A stretch of DNA of 64,000 nucleotides from a virus, in IMG/VR virus record IMGVR_UViG_3300032797_000632, positions 62,001 to 126,000 of that record. One strand, given 5' to 3'. Within the stretch, counting starts at the first letter, position 1; each line of letters begins with the position of its first letter. Below are positions 37,866-54,684 of this stretch, one piece after another. The translations under genes were made by a program, and so were the position numbers. The notes below the pieces were generated by a model. That model searched no databases, had not been told where the DNA came from, and saw only the letters and a list, made by a program, of their open reading frames with translations.

Positions 37866-39317
37866 ATGGCGAATCTGGTAAGAGACCACATCCAGGCGGG
37901 CTTCGGCCTGCTGTGGGTGCACACCTCGGAGCCCGACAGGGCTATCCGCGATCTCGGCAAGGAAATCAAATCCTTGGCCGCTGACAAGAAGCAAAATATC
38001 GAGATTGCGGAATGGGACTGCGTCAGCGGATTCAGGGACGAAAGCGGGGTCAAGCCGATGGAGGATCCCCTGATGCCCCTCAAGCGGTTCGACTCCATGC
38101 CGGACCGCTCCGTTCTTTTCCTCCACAATTATCACCGGTGCCTCGGAAGCCTCGATGCCGTCCAGACCTTCGCAAACCGGCTGGACGCCTGGCGGGGCAA
38201 GGGCAAGACGGTGATCGTCATCTCGCCGGTGATCAACCTGCCGGTGGAGATCGAGAAGCTCTGGACGATCATCGATTTCAAGCTCCCCGACAGGGAGAAG
38301 GTTCGGGAGGTCGTCGAGTACATCGCCGAGTCGGCGAAGCTCAAAAGCCCCCCGAAGGATCCGGAGCTCTCCACGATCGTGGAAAACGGCCTCGGGCTCA
38401 CGCAGTGCGAGCTCGAGAACGCCCTCGCCTACTCCCTGATCCGGGCGGGGAAGTTCGACCCCAAAATCATCTCCGAAATGAAAAGCCAGATGGTCAAGAA
38501 ATCCGGCATCCTCGAGTACGCCAAGTTCAACGAGAAGTTCGACTCCCTCGCCGGGATGGACGCCATCAAAAAGTTCGCCCTCGCCACGGCCCTCCACGCC
38601 CTCTCGAGGGGGATTCTGATCGTCGGGGTGCCCGGGTGCGGGAAGTCGCACTTCGCCAAGGCCCTCGGCAACGAGATCGGCCTCCCGGTCCTGACCCTCG
38701 ACTTCGGGCGGATCTTCGGGAGCTTCATCGGGGAGTCCGAGGGCAAGATGCGGGCGACCACCGACATGCTGGATGCGATGGCCCCCTGCGTCTGCTTCAT
38801 CGACGAGATCGAGAAGGGCCTCGCCGGGTCGGAGAGCTCGGGGCGCCTCGACTCGGGGGTCACCTCCCGGGTCACCGGGGGCTTCCTCACCTGGCTCAAC
38901 GACCACACGAGCCGGGTCTACATGGTGGCCTCCTGCAACGACCTCGACTCCCTCCCCCCCCCGTTCCAGCGGGCGGAGCGGTGGGACGCCATCTTCTTCG
39001 TCGATCTGCCCTCGGAAAATGAGCGGATCGCCATCCTTGAAATTTACCGGAAGCACTTCGAGATCAAGGACAAGAGCGTCCCGGACATGACCGACTTCTC
39101 CGGGGCGGAGATCAAAACCATGTGCCGGATCAGCAAGATGATCGGAATCCCGCTCACCGAGGCGAGGCAGTATGTAATTCCCCTCTCCAGATCGATGGGC
39201 GAGAAGATAACCAAGCTTCGGAATTGGGCGGTGGACCGGGCCCTCATGGCCTCGACCGACGCCACGGTCCGCACGAGGGAGAAGAGGCGGATCGACATGA
39301 ACCCCACCGCCAATTAG
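37866..39317 (+). CDS. ycf46: Ycf46-type AAA+ ATPase
   Basis: The 483-residue protein has an N-terminal regulatory domain (WVHTSEPDRAI near 16, VISPVINLPVEIEKLWTIID near 118) and an AAA+ domain with Walker A GVPGCGKS near 253, Walker B CFIDEIEKG near 309 and GVTSRVTGGFLTWLND near 330. This is the architecture of Ycf46, known from plastids, cyanobacteria and other bacteria. The next two genes encode DUF1257 (Ycf35) and DUF2997 proteins, its usual partners. The molecular role is poorly known. AAAGGAGG precedes the ATG. Confidence 0.87.
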   Translation: MANLVRDHIQAGFGLLWVHTSEPDRAIRDLGKEIKSLAADKKQNIEIAEWDCVSGFRDESGVKPMEDPLMPLKRFDSMPDRSVLFLHNYHRCLGSLDAVQTFANRLDAWRGKGKTVIVISPVINLPVEIEKLWTIIDFKLPDREKVREVVEYIAESAKLKSPPKDPELSTIVENGLGLTQCELENALAYSLIRAGKFDPKIISEMKSQMVKKSGILEYAKFNEKFDSLAGMDAIKKFALATALHALSRGILIVGVPGCGKSHFAKALGNEIGLPVLTLDFGRIFGSFIGESEGKMRATTDMLDAMAPCVCFIDEIEKGLAGSESSGRLDSGVTSRVTGGFLTWLNDHTSRVYMVASCNDLDSLPPPFQRAERWDAIFFVDLPSENERIAILEIYRKHFEIKDKSVPDMTDFSGAEIKTMCRISKMIGIPLTEARQYVIPLSRSMGEKITKLRNWAVDRALMASTDATVRTREKRRIDMNPTAN

Positions 39318-39343
39318 GCGGAGGGTCGGAAAGGAGGAACGGC

Positions 39344-39739
39344 ATGTCGCATATGTCCAAGATTGGTGAAATCAAGGTGCGGAACATCGAGGCCCTGAAA
39401 TCCGCCTGCAGAAAGATGGGGCTTGAGTTCTGCGAGGGGCAAAAGAACGCCCGGTACCACGGGAGCGAGTCCCAGTGTAGTCACGCCATCCGGGTCCCGG
39501 GATGCTCCAACGAGATCGGCGTGGTGGAGGGCCAGAAGGGCGAGTTCCATTTCGAATGCGACTTCTGGGGAGAGGGCAGGAAGCTGGCCGAGAAATGCGG
39601 GAAGGACCTTGGGCTTTTGAGCCAGCAATACAACATGGAAGTTGCCCGGGCGACCCTGCGGATGAAAGGCATGAACCAGCCGGTGGAGAGCCAGGTGGAG
39701 GGCGGGATCCGGCGGTTCAAAATCAATGTCGAGGCATAA
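39344..39739 (+). CDS. DUF1257/Ycf35-like protein
   Basis: The ATG at 39344 follows AAAGGAGG and gives 131 residues. The start MSHMSKIGEIKVRNIEALKS is characteristic of the DUF1257/Ycf35 family, and FECDFWGEGRKLAEKCG near 70 matches its DWW-type core. The gene directly follows ycf46, as in cyanobacteria and some other bacteria. Ycf46 and Ycf35 are thought to act together; the process is unknown. Confidence 0.8.
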   Translation: MSHMSKIGEIKVRNIEALKSACRKMGLEFCEGQKNARYHGSESQCSHAIRVPGCSNEIGVVEGQKGEFHFECDFWGEGRKLAEKCGKDLGLLSQQYNMEVARATLRMKGMNQPVESQVEGGIRRFKINVEA

Positions 39740-39754
39740 GAAAGGAGAACGCCA

Positions 39755-39952
39755 ATGGCGGAGATAATAATGGATTTTATGCCCGACGGGACCGTGCAGG
39801 TTAAGACGCAGGGTTTCAAGGGCAAAAAGTGCCTCGAGGCCACCAAGGCCCTCGAGGAGGCCCTCGGGGGCGAGGTCGAGCGGAAGGCGACGGCAGAGAT
39901 GCACCTGCCGGATGTCCCCCGGGAAAAGGTGAGTGCCCGGACCGATGGTTGA
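39755..39952 (+). CDS. DUF2997-like protein
   Basis: The 65-residue protein contains IIMDFMPDGTVQVKTQGFKG and KCLEATKALEEALGGEVE, the pattern of DUF2997 (a beta-hairpin with PDG, then GxxCLxAT and a helix). DUF2997 genes regularly sit next to DUF1257 and ycf46, so the three form a cassette. It overlaps the next gene by eight bases. Confidence 0.8.
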   Translation: MAEIIMDFMPDGTVQVKTQGFKGKKCLEATKALEEALGGEVERKATAEMHLPDVPREKVSARTDG

Positions 39953-40142
39953 GCCCCGGGAGGAAACGCCCGTCCAGGTGCGGGAGATCGAGATTCGGTT
40001 CCTGCCGGACGGAACGGTTGAAACGGACTGGTGGACCCCCGAGGCCGGCGACATCCTCTGCGGGATCTGCGGTGGGTGCCCCGGGCACCGGTCGCCAGAT
40101 GTGGATAGGCGGTGCCCGGCGGGAAACCCGTGGTGCGGTTGA
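39945..40142 (+). CDS. DUF2997-like paralog with a cysteine cluster
   Basis: The ATG at 39945 gives 65 residues. The first half repeats the PDGTV hairpin of the preceding protein (VREIEIRFLPDGTVETDW). The second half differs: CGICGGCPGH and CPAGNPWC add five cysteines that could bind a metal or an iron-sulfur cluster. It may be a duplicated and re-purposed third partner of the ATPase. Confidence 0.6.
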   Translation: MVEPREETPVQVREIEIRFLPDGTVETDWWTPEAGDILCGICGGCPGHRSPDVDRRCPAGNPWCG

Positions 40143-40171
40143 GAACGAGACAAGAAAGGAGCTGACATAAC

Positions 40172-41074
40172 ATGGCGAATTTGAAGATCAAGGATGGAGT
40201 GGTGATCAGCTTGCACATCGGATATTGGCAGGGCCGGAAGGCTCTCAGGGCCGGGGACCTTGGTCTGACCGAGGATCAGGTCCCCGACATCTACCAGCTC
40301 GGGCAAAAGATGCTGATCCCCATCGAGGAGCGGAACGCATTCCGGGCGATCGAGACCCGGGCCCGGATGAAGCTGGAAAATTATTCTTTCAAGTTCTTTG
40401 TCGGGTCGGCGTCGAGGTTCGTCCCGATCAAAAGCCTCGGCAGGGTGCTCGACGAGCTGAAGGGCCACGAGGCGGAGTTCAACGAGGCGGTGGAGGACAT
40501 CCTCTCCCGCTACGACCAGATCCGCCGGGAGATGCTCGAGAAATATTCCGACCTTCGGGACAAGCTCGAGCCGTTCTACCCCTCCCCGCAAACCCTGCGG
40601 AGGAAATACTACTTCCGGTGGTCCACCTTTCAGGTGACGACCCCCAACGGCGAGGAGGCGGTGCCCGAGGCCCTGGCCGAGGAGTACGCCCGGTTCCGGG
40701 ATTCCCTTCGGAAGGAGATGGAGGGGTTCCTCGACGAGGCCGTGGCCGAGCTGCGGGGCCAGGTGGTGGAGAAGGTCGAGCCCCTGCTCAAGCGGATCGA
40801 GTCCGGGGATATCATCCGGGACCAGACCCTCCAGTCCATCCGCGGGGTCTGCGATAAATTCGAGATGCTCAACTTCGCCGGGGACAAAACCGTCGAGCAG
40901 GCCCTTGCCCGGCTGCGGGGTGCGATCAACGGGGCGAAGGGCGAGGACACGAAGTCCGACGACCTCAAGGGCAGGATAGGTGCCGCCGCCGAGGCGGTGC
41001 TCAAGGCGGCGTCCACGGATTCGGACATCTCCAAGGTGACCGGGCGGTACAAACGGGCCATCTGGATGGATTAG
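40172..41074 (+). CDS. DUF3150-like phage protein
   Basis: The 300-residue helical protein begins with ISLHIGYWQGRKAL and EDLGL-type spacing, then LIPIEERNAFRAIETRARMKLENYS (in part) and FVGSASRFVPIKSL near 78, features of DUF3150 proteins found in many large phages close to AAA+ ATPase genes. It is rich in charged helices. Close linkage to the Ycf46 cassette suggests a functional tie, which is inference. Confidence 0.6.
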   Translation: MANLKIKDGVVISLHIGYWQGRKALRAGDLGLTEDQVPDIYQLGQKMLIPIEERNAFRAIETRARMKLENYSFKFFVGSASRFVPIKSLGRVLDELKGHEAEFNEAVEDILSRYDQIRREMLEKYSDLRDKLEPFYPSPQTLRRKYYFRWSTFQVTTPNGEEAVPEALAEEYARFRDSLRKEMEGFLDEAVAELRGQVVEKVEPLLKRIESGDIIRDQTLQSIRGVCDKFEMLNFAGDKTVEQALARLRGAINGAKGEDTKSDDLKGRIGAAAEAVLKAASTDSDISKVTGRYKRAIWMD

Positions 41075-41085
41075 GAGGGCGAGCC

Positions 41086-41955
41086 ATGTCGTTCAAAGAT
41101 GCGGCGGAGAAAATATTGAGGAGGGCGAAAAAGGCCCTGCATTACGAGGAGATCACGAGGCTTGCCATCAAGGGAAGGCTGATCGACAGCTCCGGGAGAA
41201 CCCCGGGAGCGACGATGATCGCCCGCCTGGGGGTCGATGTGAATACCCTCAAGGGGCGGTCAAGGTTCGTCAAGGTGGCGCCCGGGGTTTTCGGGATCAA
41301 CCCCCACCCATCCCCCTTGCCATCCCGTCCGAGGAAGGGATCGGCCATCGGGAAGCCCGGGAGGATAGGGTTTGACGACAAGCCGGTGGACTGGAACGAG
41401 GTGATCGAATATCTGCAAAGGGCTTGCAAAAAGGAGGCGGAGAAAAACGGAAGGGACGATGAATTGCGGGAGGAGCTTTTCTCCGAGCTTCTAGAGGTTG
41501 CGGGCAAGGTGCATAACAACCACCGGGAAATGGCCACGAAGGACCCCCAGCGATTCTGGAGGATTATCAAATCGGCGGTTTATTATCACGGTTTGAGATT
41601 CATAAGGAAGCGTCGCCGAATGCGGTCAATGGAGATCATCCCGAGGGGCGGGGATGCCACGCTCGTGCTCGACTGCAACTTGTTCGCCACCGATGTGCCG
41701 GAGGTGCAGGCCATGCTCGAGGCCCGGGAGGCGCGGGAGGAGGCGAATGCGAGGCTGCGGAAGGTGCCGAGGGTGATCGTCCGCCGGAAAAGCAAGTATC
41801 ATCGGCTGGCCGACGAGGAATGCCTAAAGAACAATAAAAGATTGAAGGCCATCAGGATTCCCGAGGATTCCCCGGTTTTTCATCCGGTAAAGTATCCATC
41901 CGGGATGAGCGCCCTTTGGGGAAGCGTCGCCGATGCGGTTCCGGCTGCACCATAG
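41086..41955 (+). CDS. HARE-HTH protein with a possible divergent sigma-like region
   Basis: The 289-residue protein starts with a HARE-HTH domain: SFKDAAEKILRRAKKALHYE through RTPGATMIARLG and RSRFVKVAPGVFG (about 1-68). This DNA-binding fold also occurs in RNA polymerase delta. The middle part (ELREELFSELLEVAGKV near 125, QRFWRIIKSAVYYHGLRF near 155, then RKRRRMRS) has the spacing of a sigma factor region 2. A late-gene transcription factor is a reasonable guess. A second HARE-HTH gene lies at 53.7 kb. Confidence 0.65.
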   Translation: MSFKDAAEKILRRAKKALHYEEITRLAIKGRLIDSSGRTPGATMIARLGVDVNTLKGRSRFVKVAPGVFGINPHPSPLPSRPRKGSAIGKPGRIGFDDKPVDWNEVIEYLQRACKKEAEKNGRDDELREELFSELLEVAGKVHNNHREMATKDPQRFWRIIKSAVYYHGLRFIRKRRRMRSMEIIPRGGDATLVLDCNLFATDVPEVQAMLEAREAREEANARLRKVPRVIVRRKSKYHRLADEECLKNNKRLKAIRIPEDSPVFHPVKYPSGMSALWGSVADAVPAAP

Positions 41956-42007
41956 GGAGGGAAGATACGGTTTTGAAAAAACCCGAGAGGGAAGGAGGCA
42001 AGAGACG

Positions 42008-43153
42008 ATGGAAGACAAGAACAAGCAGAAGGACGATGGGCCGGGGGAGGCGATCGAGCTGGCGAAGCTGTATCCGCCGAGCAAGTACAACCTGCTTCTG
42101 CCGACCCGGACGATCCAGGAGCAGCTCTCCCCGCTCCACAAGCCGAAGCTGGAGATCGTCCAGCTGACGGAGGCGGAGATCTACGAGGTGAGCCCTGGGT
42201 CGGGGGCGTATGCGGTTCACAAGAACGGCCTGCAGAAGTTCGGGGCGGCGGTCGGGGTCAACTGGCCGGGGGACAAGAACAAGCTGATCAGCGACGACAG
42301 CATCCGGGTCGTGTTCCAGGCCACCGGGGAATGCCGGCGGAACGACGGGACTTGGCAGGAGTACAGCCGGACCTACTGCCTCGACCTCCAGCAGGTCGAG
42401 GACGAGACCCGGAAGAAGTACACCGAAAAGGCGGCCAAGGCCCTCGCCAAGAAGGGTGGCGATCTCCCCGCCGGGCTGACCGAGGACACCCGGGAGATCT
42501 GGATCGAAAAGCAGACGGCGAGGGATGTCGCACAGAAGCGGAAGTTCCGGGTCCAGCTCGCCGAGAGCGGGGCCATGAACCGGGTCATCCTCGACATCCT
42601 CACCATGAAGGGCGGGTACAAGAAGGACCAGATTCTCAAGCCGTTCGTCCTGCCCCGGATCATTTTCAGCCCGGACTTCGCCGCCAACCCCGAGGCGAGG
42701 CAGATTCTGATCTCCGAGGCCGTCAAGGCCGGCGGGGCCCTCTACGGGGGGCGCACGGAGACCCACCGGGCCCTCCCGGTATCCTCGGCGATCACCATCC
42801 CGGCGGAGGCCACGCAGCCCGGGGAAAACGGGGATGGCAACGGTGCCCCGCCCGCCGATGCGGGGGAGGCGAAGACCGCCCCGGCTCCGGCACCGGCACC
42901 CGCACCCGCAAAGGAGACTGCCCCGGCCCCGGATCCCGCACCGGACCCGAAGCCGGCGGAGCCGACCCTCGAGGAGCGGTTCCCGAAGATGAACGCCAAG
43001 GACCAGGCGGACGCCATCAGGAAGCTGGTCAAGGAGGTCGACTGGATGAAGCCTTTCAAGCCGGACATCGAGAAATGGAAACCCGAGCACCGGACGGAGT
43101 TCTTCGGGGTGCTCATGGATCTGAAGAAAAAGCGGGACGAGAAACCGTATTAG
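42008..43153 (+). CDS. Phage protein with an A/P-rich linker, possibly recombination-related
   Basis: The ATG at 42008 (GAAGGAGG upstream) gives 381 residues. The N-terminal 260 residues form one domain (IYEVSPGSGAYAVHKNGLQK, AVGVNWPGD, AESGAMNRVILDILTMKGGY, KPFVLPRIIFSPDF). An Ala/Pro linker follows (about 270-320) and then a short helical C-terminal domain. The combination of a globular core and a low-complexity tail, next to sbcD/sbcC, suggests a single-strand annealing or recombination protein, but the family was not recognised with certainty. Confidence 0.55.
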   Translation: MEDKNKQKDDGPGEAIELAKLYPPSKYNLLLPTRTIQEQLSPLHKPKLEIVQLTEAEIYEVSPGSGAYAVHKNGLQKFGAAVGVNWPGDKNKLISDDSIRVVFQATGECRRNDGTWQEYSRTYCLDLQQVEDETRKKYTEKAAKALAKKGGDLPAGLTEDTREIWIEKQTARDVAQKRKFRVQLAESGAMNRVILDILTMKGGYKKDQILKPFVLPRIIFSPDFAANPEARQILISEAVKAGGALYGGRTETHRALPVSSAITIPAEATQPGENGDGNGAPPADAGEAKTAPAPAPAPAPAKETAPAPDPAPDPKPAEPTLEERFPKMNAKDQADAIRKLVKEVDWMKPFKPDIEKWKPEHRTEFFGVLMDLKKKRDEKPY

Positions 43154-43159
43154 GAGGCC

Positions 43160-43232
43160 GGACCCGTAGCTCAATTGGCGGAGCCACCGGCTCATAACCG
43201 GACGGGTGGAGGTTCGAATCCTCCCGGGTCCA
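43160..43232 (+). tRNA. tRNA-Met (anticodon CAT)
   Basis: A full cloverleaf is visible. The acceptor stem GGACCCG/CGGGTCC is perfect, the D arm is GCTC...GAGC, and the anticodon arm has the loop CTCATAA (CAT). The T arm is GGAGG TTCGAAT CCTCC and the discriminator is A. The 3' CCA is not encoded. The CAT anticodon could also belong to an Ile tRNA modified at C34. It lies between two protein genes on the same strand. Confidence 0.92.
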
Positions 43233-43252: not shown

Positions 43253-44503
43253 ATGATCACTATTCTGCATACGGGAGATTGGCATTACCGCGCCAAGTGG
43301 CTGGAGGAGATCCACAAGAACGCCTCGTTTGTGGCCGGGCACGCCGGGGAGGCGGACATCGCCATCCTAGACGGGGACCTCTACGATGGCCCCATGCCCC
43401 ACGACTCTGGGCCGGTGGCCCTGGCGATCGAGGCCGTCCAAGCGATGGCCAACCTAGCCCCGGTGCTGGCCATCAGGGGCACTTATACCCATGACCGGGG
43501 GCAAATGCACCTCCTGGGCAAGATCAGGGCAAACTGGCCGATCCTGGTCGTGGACAAGCCCATTCTGGTCGCCCTTATTGATGGCGACCTGGTTCCGCTC
43601 CCCTTGGGGGCGGAAATACCCCGGGGTGCCTCGCTGGTGGTGGGATGCCTGCCGGAGCCCCCGCGCCTGCTGGAGAGGGAGCACGCAGACGGAATGGTGC
43701 AGGCCATCTGCTCCGGATTCCGGGCTGCGTCGCAGGGGTTTCCGTTCGTGGTGGCCGGCCACCTGGGGGTGACGGGCTCGACCCTCTCGAACCAGAGCCC
43801 GCTCGGGCAGTGGGTGTCCCGGGCGTGCCTCGAGTCGGCGGAGGCCCCGGTCCTGCTGGGGCACATCCACCACCCGCAGAAAATGGCGAATAGCCAGATC
43901 ATTTATTGCGGGTCTCCGTCCATCCTGGATTTCGGGGAGGTCCACGAGCACGGGTTTTATATGCACACGATGGAGCACGGGGGAAATGGAGACGCCCCGG
44001 CCAAATGGTTCTCGTCCACATTTGTGGAAACCCCGCACCGGAGGGTCGTCGAGATCGGGTGGGAAACAAGGCCCAAGGAGAAGCCGGGCATCGGACCGCC
44101 GTACTATGTGAAAGGCGCCAAGGTGCAGAGCTCGTCTCCGAAGGCATGCACGAAGGAGGGGGAGCTGTTTTCCGCGGACCCGTCCGACATCGTCGATCTG
44201 ATCTCCCGGGTCGACTGCCGGGACATGCTGGCCCGGGTCCGGGTCGGGATCGCCAGCCCGGATCCCGACCTTCGCCCGCGGATCGAGCGGGCCTTGCGGG
44301 AGGTCGGTGCCTACGACATCAAGGTGGACATCCTGCGGGACGAGGAGGTCCATGTCCGGTTCGAGGATGTGGCCAAGGCCCGGAGTTTGCGGGACAAGAT
44401 CGTGGCCGTCCGCCCGGAGACGGTTCCGGCGATTTTGGGAAAGGCCGAGCAACTCGAGACGATCCCGGAGGAAAAGCTGATGGAGGAGGTGGCAAATTTA
44501 TAA
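43253..44503 (+). CDS. sbcD: SbcD/Mre11-type nuclease
   Basis: The 416-residue protein carries the calcineurin-like phosphoesterase motifs: HTGDWHYR near 6, DGDLYDG near 39, GHLG near 165 and GHIHHPQ near 203. The GNHD motif appears as RGTYTHD near 76, a form in which the usual Asn is lost. With SbcC it would form a DNA end-processing complex acting in recombination and replication. Its partner gene lies 2.7 kb downstream behind two other genes and the GGTNN array. Confidence 0.88.
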   Translation: MITILHTGDWHYRAKWLEEIHKNASFVAGHAGEADIAILDGDLYDGPMPHDSGPVALAIEAVQAMANLAPVLAIRGTYTHDRGQMHLLGKIRANWPILVVDKPILVALIDGDLVPLPLGAEIPRGASLVVGCLPEPPRLLEREHADGMVQAICSGFRAASQGFPFVVAGHLGVTGSTLSNQSPLGQWVSRACLESAEAPVLLGHIHHPQKMANSQIIYCGSPSILDFGEVHEHGFYMHTMEHGGNGDAPAKWFSSTFVETPHRRVVEIGWETRPKEKPGIGPPYYVKGAKVQSSSPKACTKEGELFSADPSDIVDLISRVDCRDMLARVRVGIASPDPDLRPRIERALREVGAYDIKVDILRDEEVHVRFEDVAKARSLRDKIVAVRPETVPAILGKAEQLETIPEEKLMEEVANL

Positions 44504-47185: not shown

Positions 47186-49825
47186 ATGCTACCACTTGAA
47201 TTGAGGGCAAAGGGATGGAAGGGCCTGCGGAACCTTGTGGGATCCGGGGAGCTGGCGGTAGACCTCCGGGGGCTCGCCGGCATGATCGGCATCCAGGGGG
47301 ACAACGGAATGGGCAAGACCACCTTTCTCGAGCTGATCCAGCCCCACCGGATGATGGTCTCCCGCGGGTCGGAGAGCCTGAAAAGCCAGATATTCATGGA
47401 TGCTCACAAGGACCTGACCTTCCAGATCAAGGATAGGATTTACCGATCCCTCACGCGGATCAAGGAGCGGACAGGCAAAACCGAGGCGTTCATTTGGGAG
47501 GATGGAACCCTGATGAACGAAAACGGGAACTGCGACATCCACGACGAGATCGTTTCCCGGCTCCAGGGGACGCCCGAGATGTTTTTCGCCTCGGTGTTCT
47601 GCGCCCAAAAAGGGAACCGCTCCCGCCGGATCACGGAGCTGACCAAGGGGGAGCGCAAGGGGCTGATCATCCAGTTTATGAACCTGGCCCAGCTCGAGGA
47701 GTGGCAGGCCACGGCCAAGGCCCTGCGGGATGTGATTGCCACCAAGCGCCAGGAGGCGCAGAGGGAGGTCGAAGGCCTTCGTGCGAGGCTCCTGCCCGAT
47801 CCCGGGGCGTTTGAAAAGGAGATGGAGAAGGTCAAATTCCAGATTCAGGACCTCCTGCTGCGGAAGGGGGAGATCGAGAGCTGGCTCGAGGTGGCTCAGG
47901 TGGCGGAGAAGGAGGCACTGGCCCGGGTGCGGGAAGAGGGGGAGAAGGACTCCCGCAAGCGGGCGAAGGGGGAGGAGATCGAGCGGATCGAGTCGAGGGT
48001 CGAAAAGGCCCGGGTGCGGATCAAGGATCTCGGCCTTGAGCAATCCCGGATCCGGGTGCAGGACTTGGCATCCGACCCGGAGGCGATCCGGAAGAAAATA
48101 AAGCAGGCCGAGATGGCGATCCAGGATGCGGAGCGTGCACAAGCCTTCGACGCCGGGGAGCTGAAGAAATACGAGGAAGCCCTCGAGGTGGCGAATGATC
48201 GGGCGAAGAAGGAACTGGAGATCGCCGGGGAGGAAAAGGGCATCCGGGGAAGGATCGACTCCCAAAAGAAGTACCGCACCGAGATTCAGCAGACCTTGGG
48301 GATCGTGGACGGCCAGAAGGGGCTGGCAGAGAAGCTGGCGGACCTAGCCCGGCAATCCGGGGAGGTGGAGGTCGATCTGGACGATGTCGATGGGAGGATC
48401 GTAGACCACGAGGGGTTGGTGAATGGCCTCGAGGAAAAGGCCCGGGAGGAGGCGAGGGTCGATCTGGAGAGGGAGTCCTTGACCGGCAGGGCCAAGGCCC
48501 TGTCCAAGCAGGCGGATATCCTCGGCCAACGGCCGGCGGAATGCCGGATTGACGGGTGCGCCTTTATCAAGGGGGCACTGGATGCCTCGAAGGAAATATC
48601 CGAAATCAAAAAGCAGATCGAAGCCCTCCCGCAGGTGAGGGACCGTGAATCAAGGCAGAGGGATGTCGAAACGGCTAAGGACATCGAGAAGAAAATCCGG
48701 GCGGAGCGGGACAGTCTGAAAAGCCGGCTCGTCGAGCTGGAGGCGGAATCGACCCGGGTGTCGGAGTCGATCAAACTGGCCGAACAGGCCACGGAGAGGA
48801 TCAAGCAGATCGACGGGGATATCGCCCGGCTCGAAGAGGAGCTTCGGAACCTTCCCACCCCGGATTCGCAGCAGACGCAGAAGATGATCAACGAGGCGAA
48901 GGCGGGGGTGCAGCGGGAAAAGGAAAATCTTGATCGGGCCCGGGAACATGTCAAAAAGAACAATGACCGGAGGATCGAGGAGACGGAGCGCCTGCGGGTG
49001 GCGGAGCTGGCGCAGGAGCGGATCCGGTCCATCAGCGACAAAATCGCCTCGGAGGAGTCCGGCCTGTCCGCGGAGGAGGGGCTGCTCAAGGATCGCCGGG
49101 GCGAGTGGGAGGCGATCATCGTCGATCTGTCTTGGGCGAAAAAGCTGCAGGACGCCCAGGCCGACCTGAAAAAATGGCGGGACGGGCTCTCCACAAACCA
49201 GAGGGATGCGGAGGGGAAAAGGGTCTCGCTGGTGTCGATGGAAGGCCAACTCAAAGCTGACCGGGAGGTTCGGGCGGGGATCGAGTCCACGGACTCGAGG
49301 ATCGCCATGCTGGGCCGGGAGGCCGGGGAGTGGGACCTACTCCAGACCCTGTGCGGGCGGGATCACCTGCAGGCTTATGAGATTGACGCCTCGGCGCCGA
49401 TCATCACCGGGCTGGCCAACGACCTGCTCAAGACCACCTTCGGGGACCGTTTCGCCATCCGGTTCCAGACGCTCAAGGACGGCAAGGAGGTGTTTGATGT
49501 GCTGGTCTACGACCAGGAGATCGGGGAGGAGAAGGACATCCGGGACATCTCCGGGGGCGAGGAGGTGTGGATCCTCAAGGCCCTGCGCCTGGCGATGACC
49601 CTTTTGACAAAGGAGAGGAGCGGGAAAACCTACCACACGATTTTCGGGGACGAGGAGGACGGCAAGCTGTCGATCCAGAACCGCATGGCCTACCTGCAGA
49701 TGTACCGGAAAATGCTGGCCATCGGGGGGTTCACCTGCTGCTACCTCGTCAGCCATACCCCGGAGCTGACCGAAGCCTGCGACCACCGCCTGCGGTTCAG
49801 GGCGGGGGGAATTGATGTGGATTGA
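47186..49825 (+). CDS. sbcC: SbcC/Rad50-type ATPase
   Basis: The 879-residue protein has an N-terminal ATPase half with Walker A GDNGMGKTT near 38, long coiled coils (about 170-440 and 470-740) and a hinge with Cys-x4-Cys (AECRIDGCAF near 452) in place of the usual CxxC zinc hook. The C-terminal half has the signature DISGGEEVWILKALRLAM near 786 and a Walker B region (FGDEEDGKLS near 818). It pairs with SbcD in end processing. The GGTNN array is its 5' leader region. GGAGGAGAACGAGA precedes the ATG. Confidence 0.88.
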   Translation: MLPLELRAKGWKGLRNLVGSGELAVDLRGLAGMIGIQGDNGMGKTTFLELIQPHRMMVSRGSESLKSQIFMDAHKDLTFQIKDRIYRSLTRIKERTGKTEAFIWEDGTLMNENGNCDIHDEIVSRLQGTPEMFFASVFCAQKGNRSRRITELTKGERKGLIIQFMNLAQLEEWQATAKALRDVIATKRQEAQREVEGLRARLLPDPGAFEKEMEKVKFQIQDLLLRKGEIESWLEVAQVAEKEALARVREEGEKDSRKRAKGEEIERIESRVEKARVRIKDLGLEQSRIRVQDLASDPEAIRKKIKQAEMAIQDAERAQAFDAGELKKYEEALEVANDRAKKELEIAGEEKGIRGRIDSQKKYRTEIQQTLGIVDGQKGLAEKLADLARQSGEVEVDLDDVDGRIVDHEGLVNGLEEKAREEARVDLERESLTGRAKALSKQADILGQRPAECRIDGCAFIKGALDASKEISEIKKQIEALPQVRDRESRQRDVETAKDIEKKIRAERDSLKSRLVELEAESTRVSESIKLAEQATERIKQIDGDIARLEEELRNLPTPDSQQTQKMINEAKAGVQREKENLDRAREHVKKNNDRRIEETERLRVAELAQERIRSISDKIASEESGLSAEEGLLKDRRGEWEAIIVDLSWAKKLQDAQADLKKWRDGLSTNQRDAEGKRVSLVSMEGQLKADREVRAGIESTDSRIAMLGREAGEWDLLQTLCGRDHLQAYEIDASAPIITGLANDLLKTTFGDRFAIRFQTLKDGKEVFDVLVYDQEIGEEKDIRDISGGEEVWILKALRLAMTLLTKERSGKTYHTIFGDEEDGKLSIQNRMAYLQMYRKMLAIGGFTCCYLVSHTPELTEACDHRLRFRAGGIDVD

Positions 49826-52806: not shown

Positions 52807-53784
52807 ATGATGTGGGATGAGATAGTGGAAGAAACCATAAACAATGCGGGGCCATCTGATGGATGGATGGTCGAGGAATTCAAGGGATTGTCATCGCAAG
52901 TTCAATGCTTTGAGATAACCAATATTTTCGAATGGGTGGTGGATTACGAGGAGAATCATGACGAAAAGCCGGATGTCGGACATTGCAAGCCCCCCTGCCC
53001 ATCGTGGTTTATGGATTTCAAGGCGGTAGATAAATCGAGGGTAGGAATTTGGGTTAGCACATTTCCAATGGTGAAAAGAATGAAAAGCATGATAGAGGGC
53101 TCCGTAACCAAGGCGATTCCAGATCCGGATGAATTCATGACTTCGATGTTCGAGGAAACAAGAAAGGCGGGGGAGGAAAAGACATTCAAGCAAATATTGG
53201 ACGATGAGGATTATTTCTACAAGATGGATTTGTATTTAAAAGGCGACACTAGGTCCATATTTAGGCAGGGATTTTTTATATTTTCGGATAGATGCATAAA
53301 AAAGATGTCGGTACTTTCCCCTATGGGCGAGGAAAATGTCGAAGGTGCAAAGCAAGTGGCGGCGCTGGCCATGAATATGCTTCTTTACTTTCTTTTGTTT
53401 GTAAATGCCAAAAACATCACTATTCAGACATTCAGGCGTCCCGATGATAAAATAAATAAAAAGAGGGGAAAAAACGGGAAACCCCCTCTCGCCATTTACA
53501 AGGTCCTCACCATCGACCCGAGCAAAGTCTCGAGGGAGTTCCTCCCGCGAATGACGGGCAGGGGCATGGAGGGGCTGCGATATCATTTCTGCAGGGGCCA
53601 TATCAAAAGCTACACAGAGGATTCTCCGCTGTTCGGAAAATTCTCCGGCACATGGTTCTGGTCCCCGACGATGCGGGGGAAGAAAAGTGCCGGGGAGGTT
53701 CATAAAACCTACAGAGTCGAGATCGACGGGAAAGGAGGAGGAGATGGCAGAGAGAAAGAAGGCAGGGATAGCTCCGACGGCTAG
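52807..53784 (+). CDS. Possible AcrVA2-like protein
   Basis: The 325-residue protein is A/T-rich in its first two thirds. The C-terminal part includes NAKNITIQTFRRPDDKINKK near 200, GRGMEGLRYHFCRGHIKSY near 255 and DSPLFGKFSGTWFWSPTMRG near 275. A closing RGH...LFGK.SG..W...RG pattern is shared by phage proteins related to the anti-CRISPR AcrVA2, and the length is close to that of AcrVA2 (about 320). The match is from memory and needs a profile search. Confidence 0.4.
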   Translation: MMWDEIVEETINNAGPSDGWMVEEFKGLSSQVQCFEITNIFEWVVDYEENHDEKPDVGHCKPPCPSWFMDFKAVDKSRVGIWVSTFPMVKRMKSMIEGSVTKAIPDPDEFMTSMFEETRKAGEEKTFKQILDDEDYFYKMDLYLKGDTRSIFRQGFFIFSDRCIKKMSVLSPMGEENVEGAKQVAALAMNMLLYFLLFVNAKNITIQTFRRPDDKINKKRGKNGKPPLAIYKVLTIDPSKVSREFLPRMTGRGMEGLRYHFCRGHIKSYTEDSPLFGKFSGTWFWSPTMRGKKSAGEVHKTYRVEIDGKGGGDGREKEGRDSSDG

Positions 53785-54478
53785 GGTAGAAGAACCCTTG
53801 AGGGCACTTACCAATCCGGACGGAACCATGTCGTTCAAGGATGCGGCGGAGAGGGTGCTGAAAAAGGCTAGGCGTCCTCTCCATTACAAGCAGATTGTTG
53901 CAAATGCGATCAGGGACAGGTTGATATCGCTGGAGGGGAAAACCCCCGAGGCGACGATGCTCGCACGCCTGGGGGGAGACATAAGCTCCCTCAAGGAGAG
54001 GTCGCGGTTCGTCAAGCTCGAGCCCGGGGTCTACGGACTGGCCTCTTGGAAAATTCAATCCGTCCCCAAGGCGGAGCCGACTCCGGCGAATAAAATGGTG
54101 ACAAAGCCTGCTCCGGCCCGGGAGCCGAAGCCTGCCCCGGCATCGCCTCCGGCCCCGCAGAAAACCCCCGAGCGAAAGCCAGCGGGAGAGTCCCTGTCCC
54201 TCGAGTTCGCCTTCGGGGCGGAAAAGGACCTGAAAGATGTGACCGAGGCGCTGGCCCTCGCCGGAGCCATCTACCCGGACTTCGACTCGCAGGAGTCGCA
54301 GCTCTCCCTGATCTGCACCCACTTTTTAGCGAACCACCCGACGGACGACGGAAACCTCAACCCGATGAAAAGACTTTTTAGGGCATGGGAGCAGGGGTAC
54401 GATGTCCAGATTCTGATGATCCACAACGGCGATGTGGAGTTCGGGGCGGACCTGCTCAAGGAAATCCGCGGGGCTTAA
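53744..54478 (+). CDS. HARE-HTH protein (second copy)
   Basis: The ATG at 53744 (AAAGGAGGAGG upstream) gives 244 residues and overlaps the previous gene by 41 bases. Residues about 25-95 form a HARE-HTH domain almost colinear with that of the 41.1 kb gene (SFKDAAERVLKKARRPLHYK, KTPEATMLARLGGDISSLKE, RFVKLEPGVYGL). A Pro/Ala linker follows and then a different C-terminal domain (LSLEFAFGAEKDLKDVTEAL, LICTHFLANHP). It is probably a transcription factor. Confidence 0.7.
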   Translation: MAERKKAGIAPTARVEEPLRALTNPDGTMSFKDAAERVLKKARRPLHYKQIVANAIRDRLISLEGKTPEATMLARLGGDISSLKERSRFVKLEPGVYGLASWKIQSVPKAEPTPANKMVTKPAPAREPKPAPASPPAPQKTPERKPAGESLSLEFAFGAEKDLKDVTEALALAGAIYPDFDSQESQLSLICTHFLANHPTDDGNLNPMKRLFRAWEQGYDVQILMIHNGDVEFGADLLKEIRGA

Positions 54479-54608: not shown

Positions 54609-54684
54609 GCCGAAATAGCTCAGACGGGAGAGCGGGTGACCCGTATTCACCAGGCCGGGGGTTCGCCCCCCCCTTTCGGCTCCA
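54609..54684 (+). tRNA. tRNA-Thr (anticodon CGT), with C at position 33
   Basis: A full cloverleaf is visible: acceptor GCCGAAA/TTTCGGC, D arm GCTC...GAGC, anticodon stem GGTGA/TCACC with loop CCCGTAT, T arm GGGGG TTCGCCC CCCCC, discriminator T and an encoded CCA. The anticodon reads CGT (Thr, ACG codons). Position 33 is C, where almost all tRNAs have U. The stems are otherwise perfect. Confidence 0.85.

Follow-up and report, generated by a model that had tools for sequence, protein, structure and literature searches.

A phage-borne cassette of a Ycf46-type ATPase, DUF1257 and DUF2997 with DUF3150 and a terminal Cys-Gly: a candidate AAA+ remodelling machine with exchangeable partners

The AAA+ ATPase Ycf46, the Ycf35 (DUF1257) protein and the DUF2997 protein have been retained in plastids and cyanobacteria, where their mechanism is not known. 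A conserved cyanobacterial cluster DUF2997-ycf35-fed7, in which fed7 encodes a [4Fe-4S] ferredoxin, has been described (PMC4284462), and marine and freshwater red algae are reported to differ in the presence of ycf35 and ycf46 in their plastids (PMC5940233). Among phage-borne AAA+ systems, the cobST genes of tailed viruses have been proposed to aid cobalamin synthesis (PMC8651126). Here we analyse a 64,000-nucleotide stretch (bases 62001-126000, hereafter the window) of the IMG/VR virus record IMGVR_UViG_3300032797_000632, which totals 126,141 bases and which we assign to a tailed phage because of its portal and baseplate-wedge matches. In it, a Ycf46-type ATPase, a DUF1257 protein and a DUF2997 protein are encoded together with a small cysteine-containing protein ending in Cys-Gly and a DUF3150 protein.

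Five closely packed genes on the + strand, at 37866-41074 and upstream of a SbcD/SbcC region, form the cassette:

37866..39317, + strand, Ycf46-type AAA+ ATPase, 483 amino acids (PF00004, 7.9e-25; PHROG 8638, 5.4e-84)
39344..39739, + strand, divergent DUF1257 (Ycf35-type) protein, 131 amino acids (assigned via relatives, iterated hidden Markov model)
39755..39952, + strand, DUF2997 protein, 65 amino acids (PF11211, 1e-15, 57.7 bits)
39945..40142, + strand, small Cys protein, 65 amino acids, ending N-P-W-C-G (conserved family; ribosome-binding-site-like sequence)
40172..41074, + strand, DUF3150 protein, 300 amino acids (PF11348, 1.8e-23, 83.6 bits)

The view of this set as an operon holds in outline. 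Purine-rich, ribosome-site-like stretches are found at all five gene starts: the ATPase ATG at 37866 is preceded by AAAGGAGG, the DUF1257 gene has GGAGG ahead of its ATG, and the small Cys gene, which overlaps the end of the DUF2997 gene by 8 bases, has AAGGTGAG ahead of its ATG at 39945. Between the cassette genes the + strand has no terminator-like site; one such site falls within the ATPase gene, and their total number is at the level of shuffled sequence. A preliminary description of this DNA had delimited the cassette as 37866-40142; the start of the ATPase gene and the end of the small Cys gene are right, but the DUF3150 gene, which is part of the unit, falls outside that span.

The cassette resembles the cyanobacterial, plastid and bacterial Ycf46-Ycf35-DUF2997 module in its clustered DUF1257 and DUF2997 genes and in its ATPase, which is collinear over its full length, N-terminal domain included, with a Pseudanabaena plasmid protein (residues 1-481 of 485, that is 99%, with 28.1% identity) encoded beside DUF1257 and DUF2997; we infer that this plasmid protein is Ycf46 itself. 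Unlike that module, it adds DUF3150 and a Cys-Gly tail, has no Hsp70-like gene and carries an ATPase from across a well-supported branch. In a tree of 42 ATPases (midpoint-rooted, the root serving for drawing only, and built from rows that include no chromosomal or plastid Ycf46), a 100/99 branch sets 30 rows, which include all sampled loci carrying the small tail protein, apart from a group containing the proteins of isolated phages, most of the remaining plasmid proteins and the cyanobacterial protein. The window ATPase thus belongs to a separate clade of mostly mobile-element proteins, apart from the cyanobacterial DUF1257/DUF2997-linked ATPase. It is a classical AAA protein (PF00004, 88.2 bits), and its Walker A and B motifs and the arginine residues of the second region of homology are invariant across 25 homologues. 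Because its N half, which has no P-loop, aligns with its own AAA half (hhalign, 145 columns, E 2.5e-5, probability 75%), residues ~1-215 can be read as a degenerate first AAA domain; judged from sequence, the protein would combine this with an active second AAA domain and probably assemble into a ring.

Two further kinds of system share part of this arrangement. DUF3150 also stands beside an AAA+ ATPase in CobS/CbbQ-type clusters (loci L173, L180 and L181 from metagenome-assembled genomes and the SXT-like island L032, the last also with annotated ssb and bet genes), but there the ATPase is of another family, the neighbours being AAA_5/CbbQ_C and CobT/VWA by their Pfam names, a VWA protein is present, and no conserved Cys-Gly-tailed small protein was seen. 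Across ten loci other than the cassettes (L173-L182), the surroundings of DUF3150 hold a frame for a P-loop ATPase, a VWA-like frame or both, and none showed a conserved small protein with this tail. The cassette is like phage cobST in pairing a phage-borne AAA+ ATPase with an adaptor (PMC8651126); unlike it, and unlike MoxR/VWA systems of the CobST type in general, the record, which may be incomplete, gave no match to VWA and none above the cut-off to AAA_5. As it has no Hsp70 match either, the only obvious motor for its DUF3150 protein is the Ycf46-type ATPase. In the isolated phages RHph_I4 (Rhizobium), HJ05 (Aeromonas), PA_L9 (Pseudomonas) and RcKickapoo (Rhodobacter), ATPase, DUF1257 and DUF2997 genes are ordered as here, with DUF1257 and DUF2997 annotated behind the ATPase in RHph_I4, but another protein of ~200 amino acids lies between ATPase and DUF1257 and no Cys-Gly-tailed protein was found. 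This ~200-residue protein was considered as a DUF3150 candidate and rejected, having no DUF3150 match.

Searching 2.9 million viral contigs with the ATPase, and determining gene content by iterated hidden Markov model searches, returned 25 loci. Seventeen of them (L009-L011 being near-copies) have, like the window, the order ATPase-DUF1257-DUF2997-Cys-Gly protein-DUF3150; five have ATPase-DUF1257-DUF2997 only, and L014, L020 and L022 are cut within the cassette by contig ends. A DUF1257 query gave nine further viral loci, eight with DUF3150. With DUF3150 as the query, ten loci came from 84,980 bacterial and archaeal genomes, all in metagenome-assembled genomes (MAGs) titled Deltaproteobacteria, Syntrophales, Syntrophobacterales or Desulfobaccales, of which six have all five genes and a seventh the last three. 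ATPase, DUF1257, DUF2997 and DUF3150 also occur together on two Candidatus Manganitrophus plasmids, and the ATPase-DUF1257-DUF2997 trio is widespread in bacterial genomes. The linkage in other genomes on which the preliminary description had staked the cassette was therefore found, and its operon and families are borne out: DUF2997 and DUF3150 pass their Pfam cut-offs (57.7 versus 24.1 bits and 83.6 versus 24.9 bits, the latter being the sole DUF3150 match in the record), DUF1257 is reached through relatives, and only the small Cys protein belongs to no known family, with no match in Pfam, PHROGs or NCBIfam.

The small protein had been called a Cys-rich paralog of DUF2997. It does have five cysteines in the window (CxxCxxC-x11-C-x6-C), but the paralog label is weak because the profile match to DUF2997 spans only 16 residues, and no whole-domain PF11211 match was obtained. 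The open reading frame is nevertheless a real gene, as a small Cys-Gly-terminated protein recurs at this position in 32 of 88 tabulated DUF2997-bearing loci (near-copies included). Among 17 aligned members, 16 have a strand-like start and a terminal Cys-Gly preceded by W or F; the small protein of L016 has no terminal Cys-Gly, perhaps through a frameshift, and was counted as lacking the tail protein. The five cysteines (CxxCxxC...C...C) occur in the window, L007-L012 and L029, and are invariant in the aligned proteins of the window, L007, L009, L012 and L029, whereas a second clade (14 rows, supported at 100/100 in the tree of ATPases) has lost four of the five and kept the terminal Cys-Gly. 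As that clade retains the last cysteine only, the constant feature of the family is the exact C-terminal Cys-Gly and not the five cysteines. On the Thermovibrio plasmid pTHEAM01, an unannotated five-cysteine frame of 57 amino acids ending in WCG lies behind DUF2997 (L049:4365-4535, - strand).

The same ending is also found on DUF2997 itself. Of 17 loci that carry DUF3150 and lack the small protein, 8 have a DUF2997 terminating in -LCG or -FCG (L067, L073, L121, L130, L131, L132, L137 and L138, with L131 and L138 being copies in one genome), as against none of 38 loci having neither DUF3150 nor the small protein. The two forms of the tail were never seen together, since none of the 32 small-protein loci has a Cys-Gly end on DUF2997. 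In the DUF3150 tree, rows with the tail on DUF2997 are split from the main small-protein rows by a 100/100 branch, and L029, which has the small protein and a long branch, falls among the former. A DUF2997 fragment ending in HLPLCRNA (L145, G299:C5), found with neither ATPase nor DUF1257, resembles a degenerate remnant of the -HLPLCG type, of which the same genome has two more. Searches with the five-cysteine protein gave six loci and no additional contigs among the viral contigs, chance-level matches (E 2 to 9) among phage records, and 80 pattern matches without a relative in the genome collection, a search by two short patterns that is weak evidence of absence; the Thermovibrio protein matched only itself among plasmids. 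The identity of the small protein as precursor of a ribosomally synthesised and post-translationally modified peptide was dropped, the window cassette having no radical-SAM gene.

For statistics on clusters, 20 of the 88 rows were left aside (ATPase or DUF1257 out of view, or no DUF3150 with a margin below 2.5 kb). At 80% DUF2997 identity, clusters with DUF3150 divide into 14 with a Cys-Gly tail, 7 without and 1 mixed, and of the 20 clusters lacking DUF3150 a single one has the tail (Fisher, 5e-5). At 60% identity the tail is present in 8 of 13 clusters with DUF3150 versus 1 of 11 without it (2 mixed, p 0.013), and at 50% the number of unmixed clusters is too small for a test (p 1.0). Hsp70 follows the opposite pattern: of 25 loci without DUF3150 (at least 2.5 kb on both sides), 16 carry an Hsp70-like gene close to the trio, versus 0 of 29 loci with DUF3150, corresponding to 12 of 20 versus 0 of 20 clusters at 80% identity (p 4.5e-5) and 4 of 11 versus 0 of 14 at 60% (p 0.026). 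The Hsp70 profile was built from a single sequence, that of the cyanobacterial plasmid on which annotated GrpE and Hsp70 genes adjoin DUF1257, and its other matches range from 5.5e-127 to 2.1e-27. The nine of these 25 loci that have no Hsp70 either are the following (L013, L025-L028, L049, L052, L054 and L141). In a later check, 13 regions were fetched from the same sampled genome group; L202-L204 match L037-L039 and were not counted as new, and among the ten new regions seven have the trio (two of the seven with less than 2.5 kb on one side), all agreeing with the pattern: the single DUF3150 region has the tail protein and no Hsp70, and the six without DUF3150 have no Cys-Gly tail, four of them having Hsp70. 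HEAT-repeat-like proteins, recognised by eye, recur near Hsp70-type loci (L112, L113, L115, L116, L119, L122, L123, L125, L127, L128 and L134).

With gene content, order, motifs and statistical links as the observed basis, we propose that the five products may form an ATP-driven protein-remodelling machine, of which the Ycf46-type AAA+ protein would be the motor and DUF1257 and DUF2997 the standing partners. The choice of target would be fixed by two exchangeable partner sets, an Hsp70-like chaperone in most sampled bacterial loci without DUF3150, or DUF3150 in mobile (phage, plasmid and prophage-like) loci, usually with a Cys-Gly tail on the small protein or on DUF2997. An AAA+ protein with Hsp70 is a remodelling context and so is an AAA+ protein with VWA, which leads to the common reading of a remodelling motor with an exchangeable partner. 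The exposed Cys-Gly end might be what DUF3150 or the ATPase ring recognises for docking or engagement, a part played in MoxR/VWA machines by the C-terminus and the pore finger of the VWA adaptor; in NorQD, the pore finger and C-terminus of the adaptor are reported to touch the ring (PMC13036017). The phage, finally, may apply the machine to its own DNA replication and recombination apparatus, the least certain step. We put the probability of this proposal as a whole at roughly 0.45. That the Cys-Gly end is the working signal of an undescribed mobile AAA+ machine, moving between two small proteins, tracking DUF3150 and, as a pair with it, replacing Hsp70 so as to retarget a conserved motor core, is a tentative idea that we regard as rather doubtful. 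The remodelling role put forward in the preliminary description is supported in kind, the ATPase being an AAA+ protein of the remodelling type.

The proposed target is weakly suggested by neighbouring genes for recombination or replication: SbcD and SbcC in the window, UvsX/RecA and a gp32-like protein (below cut-off) in L067 and L073, an exonuclease (Gp3-like) in L031, a beta clamp in L019 and, weakly, replication initiation in L003. Such neighbours are common in the early regions of phages, which are rich in DNA-metabolism genes, and they come from selected loci with no control, so their support is weak. Several other observations weigh against the proposal. Seven of 21 DUF3150 clusters have no Cys-Gly tail (including L047/L048, L065, L068, L070/L074/L075 and L076), while on the Thermovibrio plasmid the tail protein occurs with no DUF3150 in view. 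The clusters are not independent and at 60% identity yield p-values of only 0.013 for the tail and 0.026 for Hsp70, and all Hsp70 cases except one come from one sampled genome group. For the window genes beyond DUF3150 the 31 loci tested yielded no homologue, fold comparisons of the DUF1257 and DUF3150 models were unrewarding, with no PDB match at E <= 0.001, and no biochemistry was found for any part of the cassette.

The best surviving alternative, which we consider unlikely, is a machine for handling metal or Fe-S clusters, in which the five-cysteine protein would be the binding site of a metal or [4Fe-4S] cluster that the ATPase inserts or transfers, in the manner of MoxR/VWA systems. The invariant CxxCxxC...C...C in the window, L007, L009, L012 and L029, the five cysteines of the Thermovibrio protein, the position of DUF2997-ycf35 beside fed7 in cyanobacteria (PMC4284462) and the CobT/VWA genes adjoining DUF3150 elsewhere would all fit. 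The 14-row clade that retains the terminal cysteine alone does not, and it leaves the metal-dependent adaptor of the preliminary description unsupported as a general explanation and conceivable for the five-cysteine clades only. Nor was a ferredoxin linkage found in bacterial loci: none of 21 DUF3150 loci and only one of 19 others has the motif CxxCxxCxxxC within 2 kb, that lone match being an open reading frame on the opposite strand, and the small Cys protein does not contain the motif.

Counter-defence or host takeover, whereby the machine takes apart a host defence or transcription complex, seems improbable to us. Integrase and CI-repressor genes in the cassette region of L009 and its relatives would suit it, as would the likeness of the AAA domain to the antiphage ATPase IetA; that likeness is at the domain level, however, with IetA matches spanning the AAA domain only, the four partner proteins have no PADLOC match, and the trio is widespread in bacterial genomes too. 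We judge it quite improbable that the genes are mere passengers, linked by shared descent of a mobile block and having no machine in common, as could be argued from the many near-copies and from several loci belonging to related phages, given that the linkage holds at 25-47% identity across phages, plasmids and MAGs and that the partner swap is systematic. Finally, a ubiquitin-like tagging or sulfur-carrier system, in which the terminal Cys-Gly is activated and conjugated or else carries sulfur, like the terminal Gly-Gly of ThiS/MoaD-type proteins, is very improbable: the motif is exactly C-terminal on two different small proteins and the strand-strand-helix order of DUF2997, as read from sequence, resembles the start of a beta-grasp fold, but the cassettes showed no gene of E1-like or E2-like type (no profile search was aimed at them), the lone JAB protein (L047) stands beside a cassette without the tail, and we know of no precedent for Cys-Gly in place of Gly-Gly, which counts against this explanation.

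As regards the proposed remodelling machine with exchangeable partners, the core module was already known; what is new here is the terminal Cys-Gly rule, the shift of the tail to DUF2997, the alternation of Hsp70 and DUF3150, and the occurrence of DUF3150 elsewhere next to CobS/CbbQ-type ATPases and CobT/VWA proteins. In the literature searched, which did not cover subscription journals, we found no paper naming DUF3150, none naming DUF1257 together with Hsp70, and neither the DUF3150/Cys-Gly variant nor the Hsp70 alternation. The Hsp70 link points toward protein remodelling for the Ycf46 module, whose function becomes directly testable because the mobile variant offers small expressible five-protein sets and a two-residue feature. 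If the proposal is true, DUF3150, which occurs in phages, an island resembling an integrative and conjugative element and MAGs, would serve more than one kind of AAA+ motor.

The DUF1257 protein of the window has no Pfam match and does not reach the PF06868 cut-off; its membership follows from relatives, since the L009 homologue, 41% identical to it, passes that cut-off (27.3 versus 22.2 bits), as does the homologue of phage RHph_I4 (L003, 37.1 bits). As a query against phage records the window protein had no match, and the RHph_I4 protein matched 21. The predicted models have a predicted local distance difference test score (pLDDT) of 81 and a predicted template modelling score (pTM) of 0.72 for DUF1257, and 78 and 0.49 for DUF3150; the best VIA-align result was Z 6.1, to KA1 domains, within the uninformative range of the tool. 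Searching PDB sequences with the DUF1257, DUF2997 and DUF3150 profiles gave nothing convincing, the best value being 0.0092, for DUF2997 to the secretin GspD. The window DUF3150 sequence alone found no relative among viral contigs although 17 viral loci carry DUF3150, a limit of the pattern method, and Corndog gp97, a doubtful DUF3150 candidate, scores 15.1 bits against the DUF3150 profile built here while matching no DUF3150 entry by Pfam.

The ATPase has matches in annotated collections, 132 among 50,697 phage records and 1,523 among 72,556 plasmid records, every one below 60% identity and many of them partial. One of these relatives, on a Treponema plasmid (L050:6085-9578, 33% identical to the window ATPase over 96%), lies immediately ahead of baseplate assembly protein V, with no DUF1257 or DUF2997 match, possibly in an injection-system context. 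Proteins annotated as 4Fe-4S lie near Ycf46-type ATPases on three plasmids (L050:5354-5962, L052:2917-3735 and L054:7381-7989) and were read as NrdG-like radical-SAM proteins, with Fer4_12 and Radical_SAM confirmed by Pfam for L050:5354-5962. In L013:549-14925 the cassette is flanked by many frames of ~100 amino acids that belong to a single family (cluster c5) and make up an extensive array of small phage paralogues.

Downstream of the cassette, the window contains the following neighbours:

41086..41955, + strand, HARE-HTH protein (PF05066, 5.1e-16)
43253..44503, + strand, SbcD-like nuclease subunit (phrog_100, 8.5e-10; TIGR00619, 4.2e-7, below its cut-off)
47186..49822, + strand, SbcC-like subunit (phrog_77, 4e-28)

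The HARE-HTH gene is probably part of the cassette's transcription unit; its product has no homologue among the 31 loci tested. The protein encoded at 41933-43153 has no convincing PDB match by sequence search, and directly behind its gene lies a tRNA-Met(CAT) at 43160-43232. The phage has a second HARE-HTH-like protein, encoded at 53687-54475 and similar to the first (E 1.5e-41), and a tRNA-Thr(CGT) is located at 54609-54684.

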